A DNA stretch of 32,625 bases from Actinomycetes bacterium (lineage in GTDB: Bacteria > Actinomycetota > Actinomycetes > JAJZTN01): positions 1 to 32,625 of the forward strand of contig JAJZTN010000009.1 in NCBI GenBank assembly GCA_021848885.1, read 5' to 3'. The position numbers and the translations under genes are program-made. Below, one piece after another: positions 10,181 to 26,172 of this stretch (positions are counted from its first letter, which is position 1; each line of letters begins with the position of its first letter). Under the pieces are notes generated by a model. The model worked only from the letters and a program-made list of their open reading frames with translations, made no database searches and was not told the origin of the DNA.

Positions 10181-11824
10181 TTACCGGGGGACTCGCCAGA
10201 CCAGGCGGGTCCCCCGGCCGTGCCCTGCCACCGCGGTCGCGCTGAACTGCCCACCAAGGGCCTCCGCCCGCTGGGTCAGGTTGCGCAGCCCGCTGCGCCG
10301 CCCGCTGGGCTCAAGACCGACACCGTCATCGACCACGACGAGCGCTATCGCCTCGTCATCGACCTGGACAGTGATGTGCACCCGGGCCGCCTCGGCGTGG
10401 CGGGCCACGTTGGTCAGCGCTTCACGCAGCGCCGCCACAAGGTCGTCGGCGACGCCGTCGGGAACGGCGCTGTCGATCGGCCCGATAAGGGTCATCGTCG
10501 GCTCGAAGCCGAGAGCCTCCGCGACCTCACTTGCCTCTCGGCGCACCCGCTGGCGCAACGACCCGTCATCCTCGGTCGGGGTCTGCAGCTGGAAGATTGC
10601 CGAGCGGATCTCCCGGATGGTGGCGTCAAGGTCCTCGACCGTCTGGTTGATCCGAGTGCCCACCTGGGCCACCTTGGTCAGCTGTGCGACCGCCTGAAGC
10701 CCTAGCCCCGTGGCGTAGAGCCGCTGGATGACCAGGTCGTGCAGGTCCCGGGCGATGCGCTCCCGGTCGGCGTGCACGGCCAGCTCCTGGCGGTCGTGCT
10801 GGGCCTGACCGAGCAGCAGCGCGACGGCCGCCTGGGCGCCGAAGGCCTCCAGCGTGGCCACCGTGTCGGAGGGGAAGCGCGGCTCGGGGCGCGGGCCGAT
10901 AACCGCGAGCACCCCGATGCTGCGGTCCTCGGCGACCAACGGCACGTACGCCGCCGCAGCCTCGGCCAGGGGCCCGGCGCCGGGCAGGCCGGAGCCGAGC
11001 GCGTCGACAACCAGCGGGATTCGGGTGCGGGCGACCTCGGCGACCGGGCTCGCCTCGGCGGCCACCGCACCCAGCATGCCGAAAGTGCCCGACCCGGAGA
11101 CCACCTCGACGACCAGGTAGCCGGCACGCTGCGGCAGCAGCACGACGGCCTGCTCAGCCCCGGAGATCACCCTGGCCCGGTCCACCACGAGCTGGAGCAC
11201 CGCACGGGTCTCCCGGCCGCTCAGCACGGCCTGCACGATCTCGGCGTTGGCCCGCGCGGAGCGGGCCCGGCGCTCGGTCTCGGCCAGCAGCCGGGTGTTC
11301 TCGATCGCCGCACCGGCCGCCGCGGCCAGCGCGACGACGACGCGTTCGTCGTACTCGGTGAAGGCCCCGCCGCCGCCCTTCTCGGTCAGGTAGAGGTTGC
11401 CGAATACCTCACCGCGGGCCCGCACCGGGACACCGAGGAAGGACTCCATCGGCGGGTGGTGCTCAGGAAACCCGACCGAGGCGGGGTGCTCGGAGAGGCG
11501 AGCGAGCCGGATCGGCTCGGGATGCTCGATGAGCAACCCGATCAGACCGTGGCCCTGTGGCGTCGGACCGATCTTCTCGGCCAGCTCGGCGGAGATCCCG
11601 TGCGTGACGAAACGGTCGATGCGCCCGCCGGGCCCCAGCACACCCAGGGCGGCGTAGCGGGCATCGACAAGCGCCGCGGCGGCCTTGACGATGCGCCCCA
11701 GGACGGTGTCCAGCTGCGGCTCGCTGGACAACGAGGCCACCACACCGAGGAGCACCTCGGCCCGCGCGGCATCCGTCGAGGGCACGGCGATGCCGTCAGC
11801 CAGCATCGGGTCGGCCCCACTCAC
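10181..11824 (-). CDS. devS: DevS/DosS-like two-GAF sensor histidine kinase
   Basis: A 547-residue soluble kinase. GAF-A (about 25-180) contains GFPEHHPPMESFLGVPVRAR and EVFGNLYLTEKGGGGAFTEY, very like mycobacterial DevS/DosT. GAF-B (about 200-345) follows. The HisKA_3 dimerisation domain has H362 in RERIARDLHDLVIQRLYATG. A NarX/DevS-type HATPase follows (EALTNVARHAEAA, VVVDDGVGLE, GLRNLTQRAEALGG). In DevS, GAF-A binds heme and senses O2/NO/CO; which histidine here would be the proximal ligand needs an alignment. GTG 11824 is the outermost start and ATG 11806 (residue 7) is an alternative; neither has a clear Shine-Dalgarno. It lies about 46 bp downstream of the cognate regulator gene, so a devRS operon is inferred. 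Confidence 0.88.
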   Translation of the reverse strand: MSGADPMLADGIAVPSTDAARAEVLLGVVASLSSEPQLDTVLGRIVKAAAALVDARYAALGVLGPGGRIDRFVTHGISAELAEKIGPTPQGHGLIGLLIEHPEPIRLARLSEHPASVGFPEHHPPMESFLGVPVRARGEVFGNLYLTEKGGGGAFTEYDERVVVALAAAAGAAIENTRLLAETERRARSARANAEIVQAVLSGRETRAVLQLVVDRARVISGAEQAVVLLPQRAGYLVVEVVSGSGTFGMLGAVAAEASPVAEVARTRIPLVVDALGSGLPGAGPLAEAAAAYVPLVAEDRSIGVLAVIGPRPEPRFPSDTVATLEAFGAQAAVALLLGQAQHDRQELAVHADRERIARDLHDLVIQRLYATGLGLQAVAQLTKVAQVGTRINQTVEDLDATIREIRSAIFQLQTPTEDDGSLRQRVRREASEVAEALGFEPTMTLIGPIDSAVPDGVADDLVAALREALTNVARHAEAARVHITVQVDDEAIALVVVDDGVGLEPSGRRSGLRNLTQRAEALGGQFSATAVAGHGRGTRLVWRVPR

Positions 11825-11869
11825 GGGCGCGCCCGGGCCGGGGCGACGACGGTGCGGCAGCCTCGCGGC

Positions 11870-12535
11870 TCAGCGCAGCGTGCCGCTTCGACGTGCCTCC
11901 GTGACGTAGATGGCCGCCTGGGTACGCCGGTGCACCCCCAGCTTGGCGAGCAAGCTGGTGACGTAGTTCTTGACCGTCTTCTCAGACAGGTGCATGCGCT
12001 GGCCGATCTCACGGTTGGTCAGGCCCTCCCCGATCAGCTCGAGCACCGAGCGCTCCTGATCGGTGAGCGTAGCGATCCTCTCGTCGCGGGGCCTACCGCG
12101 CCGGACCCGGTCCAGCACCCGGGCCGTGGTCGCCTGGTCCAGCAGCGACCGACCCGCGGCAACCTCGCGGATCGCCCCGACCAGGTCGCCGCTGCGGATC
12201 TCCTTGAGCACATAGCCGGAGGCACCGGCCATCACCGCGTCGAAGAGTGCCTCGTCGTCGGCGAACGAGGTGAGCATGAGGGCCTGCAGGCCGGGGATCT
12301 GGTCGCGCAGCTCACGGCAGGCCTCGACCCCGGAGCCGTCGGGCAGCCGGACGTCAAGCACCGCCACGTGCGGGTTCACCAGCGGGGCACGGGTCAGTGC
12401 CTCGGCCATCGTGCCAGCCTCGCCGACGATCTCCATGTCCGTCTGCGCGCTGATCAGCTGCGCCAGGCCGCGGCGCACGATCTCGTGGTCATCGAGCAGG
12501 AAGACCCGGATGGGCCCAGTGCGGTCAACTGCCAT
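11870..12535 (-). CDS. devR: NarL/DevR-family response regulator
   Basis: A 221-residue regulator. The receiver domain has D15/D16, phospho-acceptor D61 (VAVLDVRLPDGSGVEA), T in LMLTSFADDE and K in YVLKEIRSGD. The LuxR/NarL helix-turn-helix is LTDQERSVLELIGEGLTNRE then KTVKNYVTSLLAKLG, matching the DevR recognition helix pattern. ATG at 12535 (MAVDRTGPIRVFLLDDHE) is preferred. It has no Shine-Dalgarno, but CACCCT lies exactly 6 nt upstream, suggesting a leaderless message. The gene is followed by the DevS-like kinase gene. The DevRS role (hypoxia/NO dormancy response) is known from mycobacteria; the symbol is by similarity and gene order. Confidence 0.88.
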   Translation of the reverse strand: MAVDRTGPIRVFLLDDHEIVRRGLAQLISAQTDMEIVGEAGTMAEALTRAPLVNPHVAVLDVRLPDGSGVEACRELRDQIPGLQALMLTSFADDEALFDAVMAGASGYVLKEIRSGDLVGAIREVAAGRSLLDQATTARVLDRVRRGRPRDERIATLTDQERSVLELIGEGLTNREIGQRMHLSEKTVKNYVTSLLAKLGVHRRTQAAIYVTEARRSGTLR

Positions 12536-12660
12536 GTGAGCAGGGTGACACATCAGGTCCCGGGACCCCGAGGACCTTCGTCCCAGCGACACGGCCCCGC
12601 GGGTGGCTGGGCGGCACGAGCATCGCCCCGGTGGCCGGGGGTCAGACCCGGTGGGGCAGG

Positions 12661-22219: not shown

Positions 22220-22750
22220 TCAGATGAACAGCAGCTGCGCTCCGGCCGTCTTCTCGATGAAGTCGCTAGCGTTGATGATCCCCTCGACGTCGTCACGCAG
22301 GGCGCTGGCGTCCAGGTGCATCATCTCCGCGGACAGCCGGCAGGCCCACAGATGGCCGCCGGCCCCGACGATCTGGTCGAGGAAGGCGGGCACCTCAGGA
22401 ACGCCGAGGTCGGCGATCTGCTTCTTCAGCATCTTCGTCGCCGCGCCGGTCATCGCTGGCGCCAACGCCTGCGGAAGGTGAATGTCCTTGAACGGCAGGT
22501 GCATCGCGGCGTTGCCGGCCGGGCTGAACTGCAGGTTGTTCATCCGGGACTTCACGATCATGTCGAAGCCCCAGAAGGTGAAGAACAGGTGGGTCTCGAC
22601 GCCCTCACCCAGAGCGGCGTTGCCCAGGATCAACCCCGGGTAGGCCATGTCCAGGTTGCCCTTGGAGCAGATGATGGCCAGCTTGCGGCCGCTGTCCTCC
22701 TCGTCGTCGAAGGACGGGACGATCGCCGGTGCGGACTCGGTGGCGGTCAT
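22220..22750 (-). CDS. DsrE2-like sulfur-relay protein
   Basis: A 176-residue DsrE/DsrF-superfamily protein of the DsrE2 type. C28 lies in KLAIICSKGNLDMAY, at the end of the first strand. A hydrophobic segment follows (LFFTFWGFDMIV, about 54-65). A second cysteine, C137, is in HLWACRLSAEMM, the position used for persulfide transfer in related proteins. The acidic N-terminal 20 residues look disordered. ATG 22750 has GAGGAG about 9 nt upstream. It is the last gene of the sqr-DUF1641-tusE-like-dsrE2 operon, 30 bp after the previous stop. DsrE2 proteins accept and donate persulfide sulfur in sulfur oxidation and tRNA-thiolation relays; here it presumably handles sulfane sulfur made by SQR. Confidence 0.85.
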   Translation of the reverse strand: MTATESAPAIVPSFDDEEDSGRKLAIICSKGNLDMAYPGLILGNAALGEGVETHLFFTFWGFDMIVKSRMNNLQFSPAGNAAMHLPFKDIHLPQALAPAMTGAATKMLKKQIADLGVPEVPAFLDQIVGAGGHLWACRLSAEMMHLDASALRDDVEGIINASDFIEKTAGAQLLFI

Positions 22751-22780
22751 GATGTGGTCTCCTCGCGCTCGTCGTGCCGG

Positions 22781-23095
22781 TCAGACGCAGCCGTGCGGCT
22801 TGGGCAGCCCGGCGATATAGGCCATCTTCTTGGCCGGCTTCTTCGGGAACAGCTGGAACTGCTCCTTGGTCGGGAAGCCCCCGACGGTGTCGACCCGCCG
22901 CGTGGTGGCGGTCTCGCCCTGCTTGGCGTAGTCCGCGCGCAGGAAGCGGATGATCTCCCAGTGCCGGTCGGTCAGGTCGATGCCGATGTTGGCGGCCAGG
23001 GTCTTGGCCAGCTCCTCGGTCCACTCGTCGTACTGGGTCAGGAAGCCCTCGTCGTCGACGTGGACCTCGTGCCCGTTCATCGTGGTAACAGGCAT
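22781..23095 (-). CDS. TusE/DsrC/DsvC-family sulfur-relay protein with a single C-terminal cysteine
   Basis: The 104-residue length is typical of DsrC/TusE. Family motifs are DEGFLTQYDEWTEELA near the N-terminus, LTDRHWEIIRFLRADY in the helical core, and the C-terminal swinging arm IAGLPKPHGCV. The penultimate cysteine (CysA, C103) is present. The second arm cysteine of true DsrC (CysB, 11 residues earlier) is Ala92, so by cysteine content it is TusE-like. TusE normally serves tRNA 2-thiouridine formation with TusABCD, but here the partners are SQR and DsrE2 and no dsrAB is present. ATG 23095 lies 1 nt after the DUF1641 stop, and GAAAGGA about 11 nt upstream is the likely ribosome site. Confidence 0.9.
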   Translation of the reverse strand: MPVTTMNGHEVHVDDEGFLTQYDEWTEELAKTLAANIGIDLTDRHWEIIRFLRADYAKQGETATTRRVDTVGGFPTKEQFQLFPKKPAKKMAYIAGLPKPHGCV

Positions 23096-23096
23096 G

Positions 23097-23789
23097 TCAG
23101 CTCAGTCCTTTCTTGGGTGCCACGCTGGGCTGCTCCTCACCGAGGGTGCGGAGCATGGACAGGGTGCGGGCCATGCCGCGGCGCACCTCAGGCTCGCGCA
23201 TCTGCCGCAGCAGGCCGATCGTCGAGGGCGGGGTGACGGGCAGATCGGCCTGCTGGGCGGTGACGGTACGGCGCAGCATGGTCATGACCTCTGGCTGGGT
23301 CATCTCCTTGACCGTCTGCAGGATCAGCACGATGTTGTCCCCGAGCGCGCGCACGTCGTCCTCGCTGAAGGAGGTCACGACGTTGTCGGCGATGACACCA
23401 CCCTGTCGGGCGAAGGAGAAGTAGCCCTTCTGGTCCAGGATGGCCAACCGCTCGGTCAGCGCGGACATCGCCGGGCCGGCAAGGCGGGTCAGCTCCTCGC
23501 CGAGCTGGGCCAGGCTCTCCAGCTGCACCAGCAGCGCATCCAGCCGCGCCGCCGATGCCGCCGCGTGCCGGGCCAGGCGGCCAAGCTCGGCCAGGCTGAC
23601 CTCGGCATCAATTTCGCCCAGCTCGTCGCTGACCTTCTGCATCGCTGCGGACAGCACCGGGGTGAGGTCGTGGCTCAGCTCGGCCCAACGCTCCCGCGCG
23701 GCGCGCTGAGCCCGCAGCTCCTCCGCGATCGCCTCAACCTGCTCACTGAGCCGGTCAAGCTTGTCGACGTCGGAGGCGGTGCTTCTCAT
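23097..23789 (-). CDS. DUF1641 domain protein, SQR-associated
   Basis: The 230-residue protein has a long N-terminal helical, coiled-coil-like region (residues 5-115, rich in Leu, Glu, Arg and Ala). A DUF1641 segment follows around 150-200 (DDVRALGDNIVLILQTVKEM then TQPEVMTMLRRTV). DUF1641 genes commonly sit beside sulfide:quinone oxidoreductase or formate dehydrogenase genes and their biochemical role is unknown. I see no transmembrane helix and no cysteine, so it is unlikely to carry sulfur itself; a scaffold or membrane-docking role for SQR is only a guess. Its ATG overlaps the sqr stop (ATGA, 23786-23789) and it ends 1 nt before the TusE-like start, so the set is tightly coupled. Confidence 0.82.
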   Translation of the reverse strand: MRSTASDVDKLDRLSEQVEAIAEELRAQRAARERWAELSHDLTPVLSAAMQKVSDELGEIDAEVSLAELGRLARHAAASAARLDALLVQLESLAQLGEELTRLAGPAMSALTERLAILDQKGYFSFARQGGVIADNVVTSFSEDDVRALGDNIVLILQTVKEMTQPEVMTMLRRTVTAQQADLPVTPPSTIGLLRQMREPEVRRGMARTLSMLRTLGEEQPSVAPKKGLS

Positions 23790-25024
23790 GACAGCTCCTC
23801 GACCTGCTTGCCAGCCATCGACATCAGGGCAGGCAACGGCAGCTCCTTGCCCGGCAGCAGCAGGTTCCAGTACATCCAGCGGAACATCAACTTGCCCCAG
23901 TGGTTGAGCTCGGTCTCCTTGAGCAGGCTGAAGGGCCCGACACCGGGCAGCGGGTACTTGCCCGGCAGCGGCTCGGTGTCGTAGTTGAAGTCGATGAGCA
24001 GGCCCTTGCCGTGCCCGGACTCGATGAAGCAGTTGGCGTGACCGTCGAACTTCTCCGTCATGGGCAGGCCCTGGACATGGCGGAGGAAGTTGTCCGGGAA
24101 CAGGTCCATGGCGAAGTGGGCCACCGAGCCAGCCTTGGACGCCGGGATGTTGGAGGCGTCACCGACGGCGAAGATGTTGTCATAGGCCGTTGACAGCAGC
24201 GTCTCCTTGTCCACCGGGACGTAGTTGAGGTCGTCACCCAGCCCGGAGCGGGCGACGAAGTCCGCACCCATGTTGATCGGGATGGTCACCAGCAGGTCGT
24301 AGGGCACCTCGCGCTCGTCGAAGGAGACAAGCTTGCGGGCCTCGGCGTCGACCGACTCCACCATGAAGTCCGGCTCGAGCTGAATCTTGCGCTCCTCGAG
24401 CATGCCGCCGAGGTGCCGGGAGGCGACCGGCTTGGTGAAGGCACCCTCCAGCGGCGTCACGTAGGTGATCTCCACCCGGTCCCGCATGCCCTGCTCGGTG
24501 AAGAACGCGTCGGCGAGGAAGGTGAACTCCAGCGGGGCGACCGGACACTTGATGGGCATCTCGGTGAGCTGGACGACGAGCTTGCCGCCTTCCCAGGTCT
24601 TGAGCTTCTCGGCCAGGCGCGTCGCGCCCTCGAGGGTGTAGAACTCGTGCACGTTCCCACCCATGTCATCGGCCATGCCCGGAGTCTGGTCCGGGCGCGG
24701 CGAGGTCCCGCTGGCAATGACAAGGAAGTCGTAGCCGAGCTCGCGGCCGTCGGCGAGCAGGACCTTGTTGTCCTCGGGCACGACCCGCTCGATCGTGCCG
24801 AGCACGAGGTCCACCCCGTCGGGGATGAACCGGTGCCGGGGCTTGGTGACCTCGTGGGGCTGGTAGATCCCGAAGGGGATGAACAGGTACCCGGGCTGGT
24901 AGTGGTGGACGTCGTCCTGGTCGACGATCGTGATCGACCACTGCGCGGCGTCCAGGCGGGGGCGCAGCTTGTTGACCGCCATCGTTCCCGCGGTGCCCGC
25001 ACCCAGGACCAGCAGTTTCCTCAT
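23786..25024 (-). CDS. sqr: Sulfide:quinone oxidoreductase-like FAD protein
   Basis: A 412-residue flavoprotein of the SQR/FCC family, peripheral at the membrane, oxidising sulfide and passing electrons to quinone. FAD-binding GAGTAG is at 8-13, the second flavin strand is YDFLVIASGTSPRPDQ, and the C-terminal FAD motif is NIFAVGDASNIPASKAGSVA. Two cysteines fit SQR redox positions: C160 in MPIKCPVAPLEF and C332 in HANCFIESG. The C-terminal part has the amphipathic or hydrophobic helices expected for membrane attachment (NHWGKLMFRWMYWNLLLPG). ATG 25024 is fixed by GAGGGAGAG upstream; the frame continues open far upstream but only through non-homologous sequence. First gene of a four-gene operon. 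Confidence 0.9.
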   Translation of the reverse strand: MRKLLVLGAGTAGTMAVNKLRPRLDAAQWSITIVDQDDVHHYQPGYLFIPFGIYQPHEVTKPRHRFIPDGVDLVLGTIERVVPEDNKVLLADGRELGYDFLVIASGTSPRPDQTPGMADDMGGNVHEFYTLEGATRLAEKLKTWEGGKLVVQLTEMPIKCPVAPLEFTFLADAFFTEQGMRDRVEITYVTPLEGAFTKPVASRHLGGMLEERKIQLEPDFMVESVDAEARKLVSFDEREVPYDLLVTIPINMGADFVARSGLGDDLNYVPVDKETLLSTAYDNIFAVGDASNIPASKAGSVAHFAMDLFPDNFLRHVQGLPMTEKFDGHANCFIESGHGKGLLIDFNYDTEPLPGKYPLPGVGPFSLLKETELNHWGKLMFRWMYWNLLLPGKELPLPALMSMAGKQVEELS

Positions 25025-25233: not shown

Positions 25234-26172
25234 TCAGTCGGCAAGGGCCACCCGCCGCGCCTGCAGCCGGGCGCGCCTGTCCTCGAACGCCGAGGCGGTG
25301 ACCTCCAGCCTGTCCAGGAAGGCGGCGAGCTGCTCGCGGGCCTGCTCGGCCGGGCCGTCCAGCCCCTCGATGTCCCACAGCCGCCAGTGCTTGAGCACCG
25401 GGGCGAGAACCTCGTCGCGGTGGATGCGCAGGTCGTAGATACCGGCCATGGCGATCTGCACCGAGCGGCGGGCGAAACCGGCCATGCCCGCTCCCGGCAT
25501 CTGGAAGTCGCGGACCACGTCCCAGACCGCCTGGACGGTCGGGGACGGGGCAACCTGTAGGGCGCCGGCGAGCAGGTTGCGGTAGAAGACCATGTGCAGG
25601 TTCTCGTCGGTGGCGATGCGGGTCAGCAGCGCGTCGGCGACCGGGTCCTGGGTGTAGCGACCGGTGTTGCGGTGCGATATCCGGGTGGCCAGCTCCTGGA
25701 AGGTCACGTAGGCCACCGTGTGCAGCATGTCCAGCTCGTTGGCGCCCTCGTAGCCGGCGCTCATGTGCGCCATGCGCTCGCGCTCGAGCGCGACCGGGTC
25801 GACCGCCCGGGTGGTCAGCAGGTAGTCGCGGATCGCGATGCCGTGCCGGCCCTCCTCTGCCGTCCAGCGGCCCACCCAGGTGCCCCAGGCCCCGTCGCGG
25901 CCGAAGACCCGGTAGATCTCCCGGTGGTAGCTGGGCAGGTTGTCCTCGGTCAGCAGGTTGACCACCAATGCGGTGCGGGCCACCTCCGACAGCCTGGACT
26001 GACCCTCGTCCCAGCCGCGGCCACCGAGGGGGCCGTCGAAGTCCTCGCCCTGCGACCACGGCACGTAACCGTGCGGGAACCACTCGCGGGCCACACCGAG
26101 GTGCCGGTCAAGCTCGACGCCGACGACCGGCTCGAGCTCGCGCATCAGGTCTGCCTGGTCGAACTGGCCCAC
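25234..26172 (-). CDS. Acyl-ACP desaturase (ferritin-like diiron, DesA type)
   Basis: A 312-residue soluble diiron desaturase introducing a double bond into acyl-ACP. The iron-ligand helices are visible: VVNLLTEDNLPSYHREI (first Glu), RWTAEEGRHGIAIRDYLL (ExxH), VTFQELATRISHRN (third Glu and His region) and IATDENLHMVFYRN (ExxH). This spacing is that of mycobacterial DesA1/DesA2 and plant stearoyl-ACP desaturases. GTG 26172 is chosen because GGAGG lies about 7 nt upstream. The gene is on the same strand as the sqr operon but separated by 209 bp, so independent transcription is likely. An electron donor (ferredoxin and reductase) is not encoded nearby. Confidence 0.9.
   Translation of the reverse strand: MGQFDQADLMRELEPVVGVELDRHLGVAREWFPHGYVPWSQGEDFDGPLGGRGWDEGQSRLSEVARTALVVNLLTEDNLPSYHREIYRVFGRDGAWGTWVGRWTAEEGRHGIAIRDYLLTTRAVDPVALERERMAHMSAGYEGANELDMLHTVAYVTFQELATRISHRNTGRYTQDPVADALLTRIATDENLHMVFYRNLLAGALQVAPSPTVQAVWDVVRDFQMPGAGMAGFARRSVQIAMAGIYDLRIHRDEVLAPVLKHWRLWDIEGLDGPAEQAREQLAAFLDRLEVTASAFEDRRARLQARRVALAD

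Follow-up and report, generated by a model that had tools for sequence, protein, structure and literature searches.

The operon considered here lies in a 32,625-nucleotide stretch of DNA from an Actinomycetes bacterium (contig JAJZTN010000009.1 of assembly GCA_021848885.1), and this whole stretch is called the window below. Four genes at positions 22220-25024, all on the minus strand, encode in this order a sulfide:quinone oxidoreductase (SQR), a DUF1641 protein, a DsrC/TusE-like sulfur carrier and a DsrE2-like sulfurtransferase. On balance, we favour the explanation that they constitute a menaquinone-coupled sulfide oxidase together with a relay that off-loads its sulfur. The order of these genes is kept in most related loci, the likely sulfur-carrying cysteines are conserved, and the DUF1641 protein is homologous to subunits of two other menaquinone-linked enzymes. 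The four genes are:

23786..25024, minus strand: sqr, predicted type III SQR (NCBIfam NF049943, 645 bits against a cut-off of 525), with catalytic cysteines in the motifs KCPVAP and HANCFIE
23097..23789, minus strand: DUF1641 protein, proposed membrane/menaquinone coupling subunit, with its PF07849 segment at residues 187-217
22781..23095, minus strand: dsrC/tusE-like sulfur carrier (PF04358, 113 bits; TIGR03342, 85 bits), with a single, penultimate cysteine (C103)
22220..22750, minus strand: dsrE2-like sulfurtransferase (PF13686, DrsE_2, 99 bits), with likely active cysteine C137

An earlier note on this DNA, made from its letters alone, described these genes as joined by overlaps or by gaps of 1 to 30 base pairs. 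Indeed, sqr and the DUF1641 gene overlap by 4 bases (ATGA), 1 base separates the latter from dsrC, and 30 bases separate dsrC from dsrE2.

In the proposed mechanism, SQR would oxidise sulfide and retain the sulfane sulfur on its catalytic cysteines. The DUF1641 protein, as a helical subunit free of cofactors, would form a complex with SQR, dock it to the membrane and open its access to menaquinone, for which the models are HucM of the Huc hydrogenase (a proposed role) and ForE of formate dehydrogenase (a probable one). The sulfane sulfur would then move from SQR to C137 of DsrE2 and onward to C103 of the TusE-like DsrC. In this organism the relay may well end in a TusA/DsrE/sHdr system that is encoded elsewhere in the genome and would yield sulfite. 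In most relatives, which have neither sHdr nor dsrAB, it would end elsewhere, probably in the clearance of sulfane sulfur. The endpoint is the weakest step of this route.

There are relatives of the window DsrC in 48 of 397 evenly drawn Actinomycetota genomes, and in 27 of these 48, as in the window itself, SQR and DsrE2 adjoin DsrC with the order kept. The sqr-dsrC-dsrE2 set is not present in the inspected genomes that carry a DsrC of lower identity. A scan of named genomes provided 80 additional loci. Conservation of the gene order, which the earlier note had suggested checking, proved extensive: sqr-(DUF1641)-dsrC-dsrE2 is found on one strand and in this order at 101 of 107 loci, although only 30 of these 101 modules include DUF1641, and all of those fall within a single region of the SQR tree. 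Because the 107 loci (a few of which are one genome reached twice) were picked by DsrC similarity alone, the linkage is far beyond chance. The six exceptions are three loci cut by contig ends, one in which the search missed DsrC, and two isolated dsrC genes. Modules occur in the phyla Actinomycetota, Chloroflexota, Deinococcota, Acidobacteriota and KSB1, and their carriers include Nocardioides, Terrabacter, Kribbella, Streptomyces, Micromonospora, Cellulosimicrobium, Acidimicrobiia, Anaerolineae, Thermoflexus and Trueperaceae as well as KSB1 and Acidobacteriota members.

The sqr product is predicted from its sequence to have the activity of a type III SQR. In addition to its score with the type III model, it matches Pyr_redox_2, and its closest solved relatives are SQRs, with NDH-2 among the weak matches. 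The full-length SQRs of the module likewise keep both catalytic cysteines (in KCP and ANC motifs). A separate observation concerns three SQR genes in which an in-frame TGA stands precisely where the second catalytic cysteine would be encoded (L071, 8271-9800, plus strand; L188, 5633-6778, plus strand; L189, 5813-6970, plus strand). These match the expectation for selenocysteine SQRs and are candidates for such enzymes, and those of L188 and L189 adjoin DUF1641 genes.

The earlier note was right that the DUF1641 protein has no cysteines, but it missed a kinship to characterised menaquinone-linked enzymes that likely gives the second gene a role. The protein is a member of PF07849 (29.7 bits against a gathering cut-off of 21). 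A phmmer search of the PDB with its single sequence gave chance-level matches only. A profile of SQR-linked DUF1641 proteins matches ForE1 with an E value of 1e-7, ForE being the best solved match, and matches HucM at 94.7% over the C-terminal 60 residues. In B. subtilis, the ForE proteins belong to the DUF1641 family and co-purify with formate dehydrogenase, a menaquinone-linked enzyme for whose activity ForE1 is essential (PMC8808070). HucM is the menaquinone stalk of the Huc hydrogenase, and its gene is located directly upstream of hucS-hucL in M. smegmatis; the C-terminal stalk of the protein extends as far as the membrane and is a proposed menaquinone conduit (PMC10017518). The same position, directly upstream of hucS and hucL, is occupied in the window's own genome by a second DUF1641 gene:

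L184 (contig C209), 7191-10089, minus strand: hucL and hucS ([NiFe]-hydrogenase, Huc-type) with the HucM-like DUF1641 gene upstream, cut by the contig end

These Huc-type genes suggest that the organism uses H2, and they agree, as do its aerobic named relatives, with an apparently aerobic lifestyle. In another genome (L191), the protein in the HucM position matches solved HucM with an E value of 7e-41 and has PF07849 at residues 147-183. There are 22 DUF1641 matches in 297 Actinomycetota genomes, of which 15 are beside an SQR-type gene, six are beside hucSL and one is unassigned. Of the 11 SQR neighbours of DUF1641 that lie outside the module, eight were read; all eight retain the two catalytic positions, and in two of these proteins the second position is encoded by an in-frame TGA. 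Given the homology of the window protein to HucM and ForE, and the position of its gene beside that of a predicted menaquinone-linked oxidoreductase, we think it reasonably likely that DUF1641 is a subunit that couples SQR to the membrane and to menaquinone.

Several observations weigh against this assignment. The strong similarity to HucM is limited to the C-terminal 60 residues, and a Foldseek search of the PDB with the model of the window protein found no structural match. The profile of SQR-linked proteins matches B. subtilis YjlC and a chain titled NDH-2 membrane coupling protein only weakly (E values of 0.04-0.07); NDH-2 is itself a flavoprotein and a relative of SQR. The C-terminal ends of SQRs look alike by eye whether or not DUF1641 accompanies them, and thus DUF1641 is not a simple replacement for a lost SQR membrane anchor. 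Finally, 71 of the 101 modules have no DUF1641, which indicates that SQR works without it there and that DUF1641 is an accessory of one SQR branch.

Perhaps DUF1641 is instead a mere oligomerisation scaffold or chaperone of SQR that plays no part in quinone access. An AlphaFold2 (AF2) model of the window protein as a monomer (pTM 0.31) is all-helical: a pair of helices, each 55-57 residues long, precedes shorter ones, and these long helices have a shape that would suit any scaffold. A coupling subunit of the HucM/ForE type would be expected to assemble into a tetrameric tube with a hydrophobic lining. Moreover, deletion of HucM abolishes the Huc oligomer and leaves Huc active (PMC10017518). 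Yet the segment common to HucM, ForE and the SQR-linked DUF1641 proteins is the C-terminal tip, which is the membrane end in HucM, and the known DUF1641 partners are all quinone-linked enzymes; we therefore regard the scaffold role as rather unlikely. DUF1641 proteins of 370 residues are also found (L188, 6788-7897, plus strand; L190, 7896-9005, minus strand), wherein the N-terminal part contains several similar repeats of about 65 residues, as if the stalk had been lengthened.

For the two carrier proteins, the earlier note had put forward C103 of the DsrC/TusE-like protein and both C28 and C137 of DsrE2 as persulfide-carrying residues. Among 28 aligned sequences, C103 is invariant and C137 is conserved in 27; C137 also aligns with a cysteine of solved DsrE-like proteins. 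In contrast, C28 is not conserved and thus is unlikely to be a general carrier site. The first carrier is a member of the DsrC/TusE family in which alanine replaces the second cysteine of DsrC and C103 is the sole cysteine, a pattern reported for DsrC of organisms that have no DsrAB (PMC3397948). It accordingly differs from the two-cysteine DsrC of sulfite-reductase systems, and neither NIR_SIR nor dsrA is found in the genome. The DsrE2-like protein scores 89.9 bits with NCBIfam NF047629, against an equivalog cut-off of 210, and belongs to the wider PF13686 family rather than to DsrE2 as defined by that model. Sulfur transfer from a DsrE-type protein to the penultimate cysteine of DsrC has been demonstrated in A. 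vinosum (PMC3397948). By analogy with this DsrEFH-to-DsrC transfer, and with the conserved cysteines in mind, a relay of sulfur from SQR to DsrE2 to DsrC appears probable.

A TusE-like protein could in principle supply tRNA thiolation by passing SQR-derived sulfur to MnmA, as TusE does in E. coli. The carrier does show the single-cysteine TusE pattern and matches TIGR03342, but its score of 70 bits is far under the 191 of the TusE equivalog model, and no thiolation gene recurs beside the module. The other DsrE-family matches of the window's genome are single and on different contigs, and thus no tusBCD set is seen. This route is very improbable.

The destination of the sulfur was described in the earlier note as an acceptor other than sulfite reductase, and this part of its proposal holds: the SQR-DsrC-DsrE2 linkage is conserved, and dsrA is above the cut-off in one of 68 module-bearing genomes, compared with all four control genomes that carry a lower-identity DsrC. 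Some of the 68 genomes are incomplete, and therefore single absences mean little and it is the pattern over all 68 that counts. With nearly all tested carriers lacking dsrA, dissimilatory sulfite reductase cannot be the general destination of the sulfur. In the window's genome (2.68 Mb, 97.7% complete), whose gene content was assessed family by family, NIR_SIR has no match, and thus no dsrAB or other siroheme sulfite reductase was found there.

The earlier note also stated that no dsrAB, sHdr, TusBCD or rhodanese gene is nearby. This is correct for the window, whose scanned open reading frames include no dsr, sHdr, tusA, DsrE-family or rhodanese gene besides the operon, but it does not extend to sHdr across the genome. 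All matches to the TusA, CCG and DsrE families are located off the window contig, and they include an sHdr cluster:

L182, 1-9283 (contig C16), and L183, 1-1326 (contig C203), minus strand: sHdr cluster, with an ArsR-type regulator upstream and the two contigs overlapping within one tusA

It comprises genes for an ArsR-type regulator, tusA, dsrE, hdrC1, hdrB1, hdrA, a hypothetical gene, a fused hdrC2B2, an lplA-like gene, lbpA, lipS and lplA. The cluster thus has the composition of an sHdr system (hdrC1-B1-A-hyp-C2B2 with lbpA, lipS, lplA, tusA and dsrE) and is unlinked to the operon. Inspection of the surroundings of the CCG motifs in sHdrB1 homologues, where selenocysteine had been suspected, showed none. 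An sHdr system elsewhere in the genome that uses these carriers would, in the terms of the earlier note, speak against a separate route; the genes exist, and the use of these carriers by sHdr stays putative. Since the cluster is in the same genome, the relay may feed sHdr in this organism. The simplest reading of the gene content makes sHdr the endpoint here, and we give it slightly less than an even chance. What counts against it is that a match to sHdrB1 is found in only three of the 68 module-bearing genomes, and that the nearest relative by SQR (L091) has no sHdr. The absence of sHdr from most carriers means that the module and sHdr need not be coupled.

Another possibility is that the module serves detoxification or persulfide homeostasis, in the manner of cst or yrk clusters. 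SQR would remove self-made or external sulfide, and DsrE2 and TusE would buffer sulfane sulfur before it reaches small thiols, a rhodanese or a persulfide dioxygenase. Even in this organism, the module would then have no dedicated connection with sHdr. Both sHdr and dsrA are absent from most carriers, many of which are ordinary heterotrophic genera, as this alternative would predict. Genes for rhodanese, thioredoxin, OsmC and DUF302 proteins recur near the module in a minority of loci, and the first three of these are likewise in its favour. In B. licheniformis, genes for DsrE, TusA and rhodanese are transcribed together with sqr and pdo, and they confer protection from both sulfide and sulfane sulfur (PMC9918477). 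However, no persulfide dioxygenase family recurs beside the module, the cst and yrk clusters by their published descriptions have no DsrC/TusE partner, and the full sHdr set is present in this genome. We consider detoxification a credible alternative, if not the favoured one. No conserved downstream gene that would be a candidate sulfur acceptor was found beside the module.

All parts of the proposed sulfide oxidase and relay belong to known families. HucM (Huc [NiFe]-hydrogenase of M. smegmatis; PDB 7utd, 7uus) resembles the window DUF1641 protein in its C-terminal DUF1641 segment, its freedom from cofactors and its place beside a menaquinone-reducing enzyme, but the partner in the window is SQR rather than a hydrogenase, and the N-terminal parts have no detectable similarity. 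ForE (YjgD/YrhD of the B. subtilis menaquinone-linked formate dehydrogenase; PDB 8rqz) is also without cofactors and encoded beside the catalytic gene, but its partner is formate dehydrogenase, and the helical N-terminal part of the window protein is longer. The DsrEFH-DsrC and TusBCD-TusE relays similarly pair a DsrE-family protein with a penultimate-cysteine protein of the DsrC/TusE family, whereas in the module one DsrE2-like protein takes the place of the three-subunit complex, and the pair is linked to SQR without DsrAB or TusBCD. SQR together with DsrE-type sulfane sulfur carriers is already known from cst of Staphylococcus and yrk-sqr-pdo of Bacillus licheniformis (PMC9918477); those clusters include rhodanese, TusA and persulfide dioxygenase, none of which is encoded in the operon here, and the module has a DsrC/TusE carrier instead. 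The sHdr system, with its TusA and DsrE carriers upstream, shares this genome with the operon and is absent from most module genomes. No paper on an SQR-DsrC-DsrE2 module, or on DUF1641 paired with SQR or DsrE2, was found in a literature search that did not extend to preprints and most subscription papers. Thus, the module seems to be widespread in actinobacteria and some other phyla, yet undescribed as a unit.

Actinobacteria usually have mycothiol in place of glutathione, and therefore SQR may lack its usual small-thiol acceptor, a gap that a protein acceptor would fill. As a tentative proposal, the physiological acceptor of SQR could be the DsrE2 and TusE-like DsrC pair, rather than glutathione, coenzyme A or sulfite, with one branch reaching menaquinone through a HucM/ForE-type DUF1641 protein. 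The finding is of moderate interest, mainly for its link to DUF1641, a domain of unknown function that gains a testable role in tying soluble or peripheral oxidoreductases to menaquinone, here extended to sulfide oxidation. If the tentative proposal is true, peripheral menaquinone oxidoreductases that act on H2, formate, sulfide and perhaps NADH would share DUF1641 as a general coupling subunit. The finding also points to a conserved module for sulfur relay from SQR in many aerobic actinobacteria.

At 21 related loci, a regulator with HTH_17 and a PocR sensory domain that has two nearly invariant cysteines is encoded immediately upstream of sqr and in the same orientation (for example L075:3285-3995, plus strand, and L119:3224-3988, plus strand). 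It is a candidate sensor of sulfide or sulfane sulfur. DUF1641 is present at 19 of the 21 loci, and this association (Fisher p 5e-11, raw) was dropped as evidence because its independence from shared ancestry cannot be shown. The window's genome yielded no PocR gene, but the Pfam model scores some members of the regulator subfamily weakly.

Upstream of the operon, a gene of the fatty acid desaturase family (PF03405) has its end at 25234, about 210 bases away, and downstream there is an alpha/beta hydrolase gene on the opposite strand. This gap and the change of strand indicate that the four genes are a stand-alone unit. A different arrangement is found at loci L197-L201 of other Actinomycetota, where a small DsrE-like gene (below the search threshold in L201) is followed by SQR and then DUF1641, without DsrC. 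Elsewhere in the window (10181-12592, minus strand), a gene for a GAF-domain histidine kinase of 547 amino acids has a LuxR-type response regulator gene upstream, and this pair has no link to the operon.

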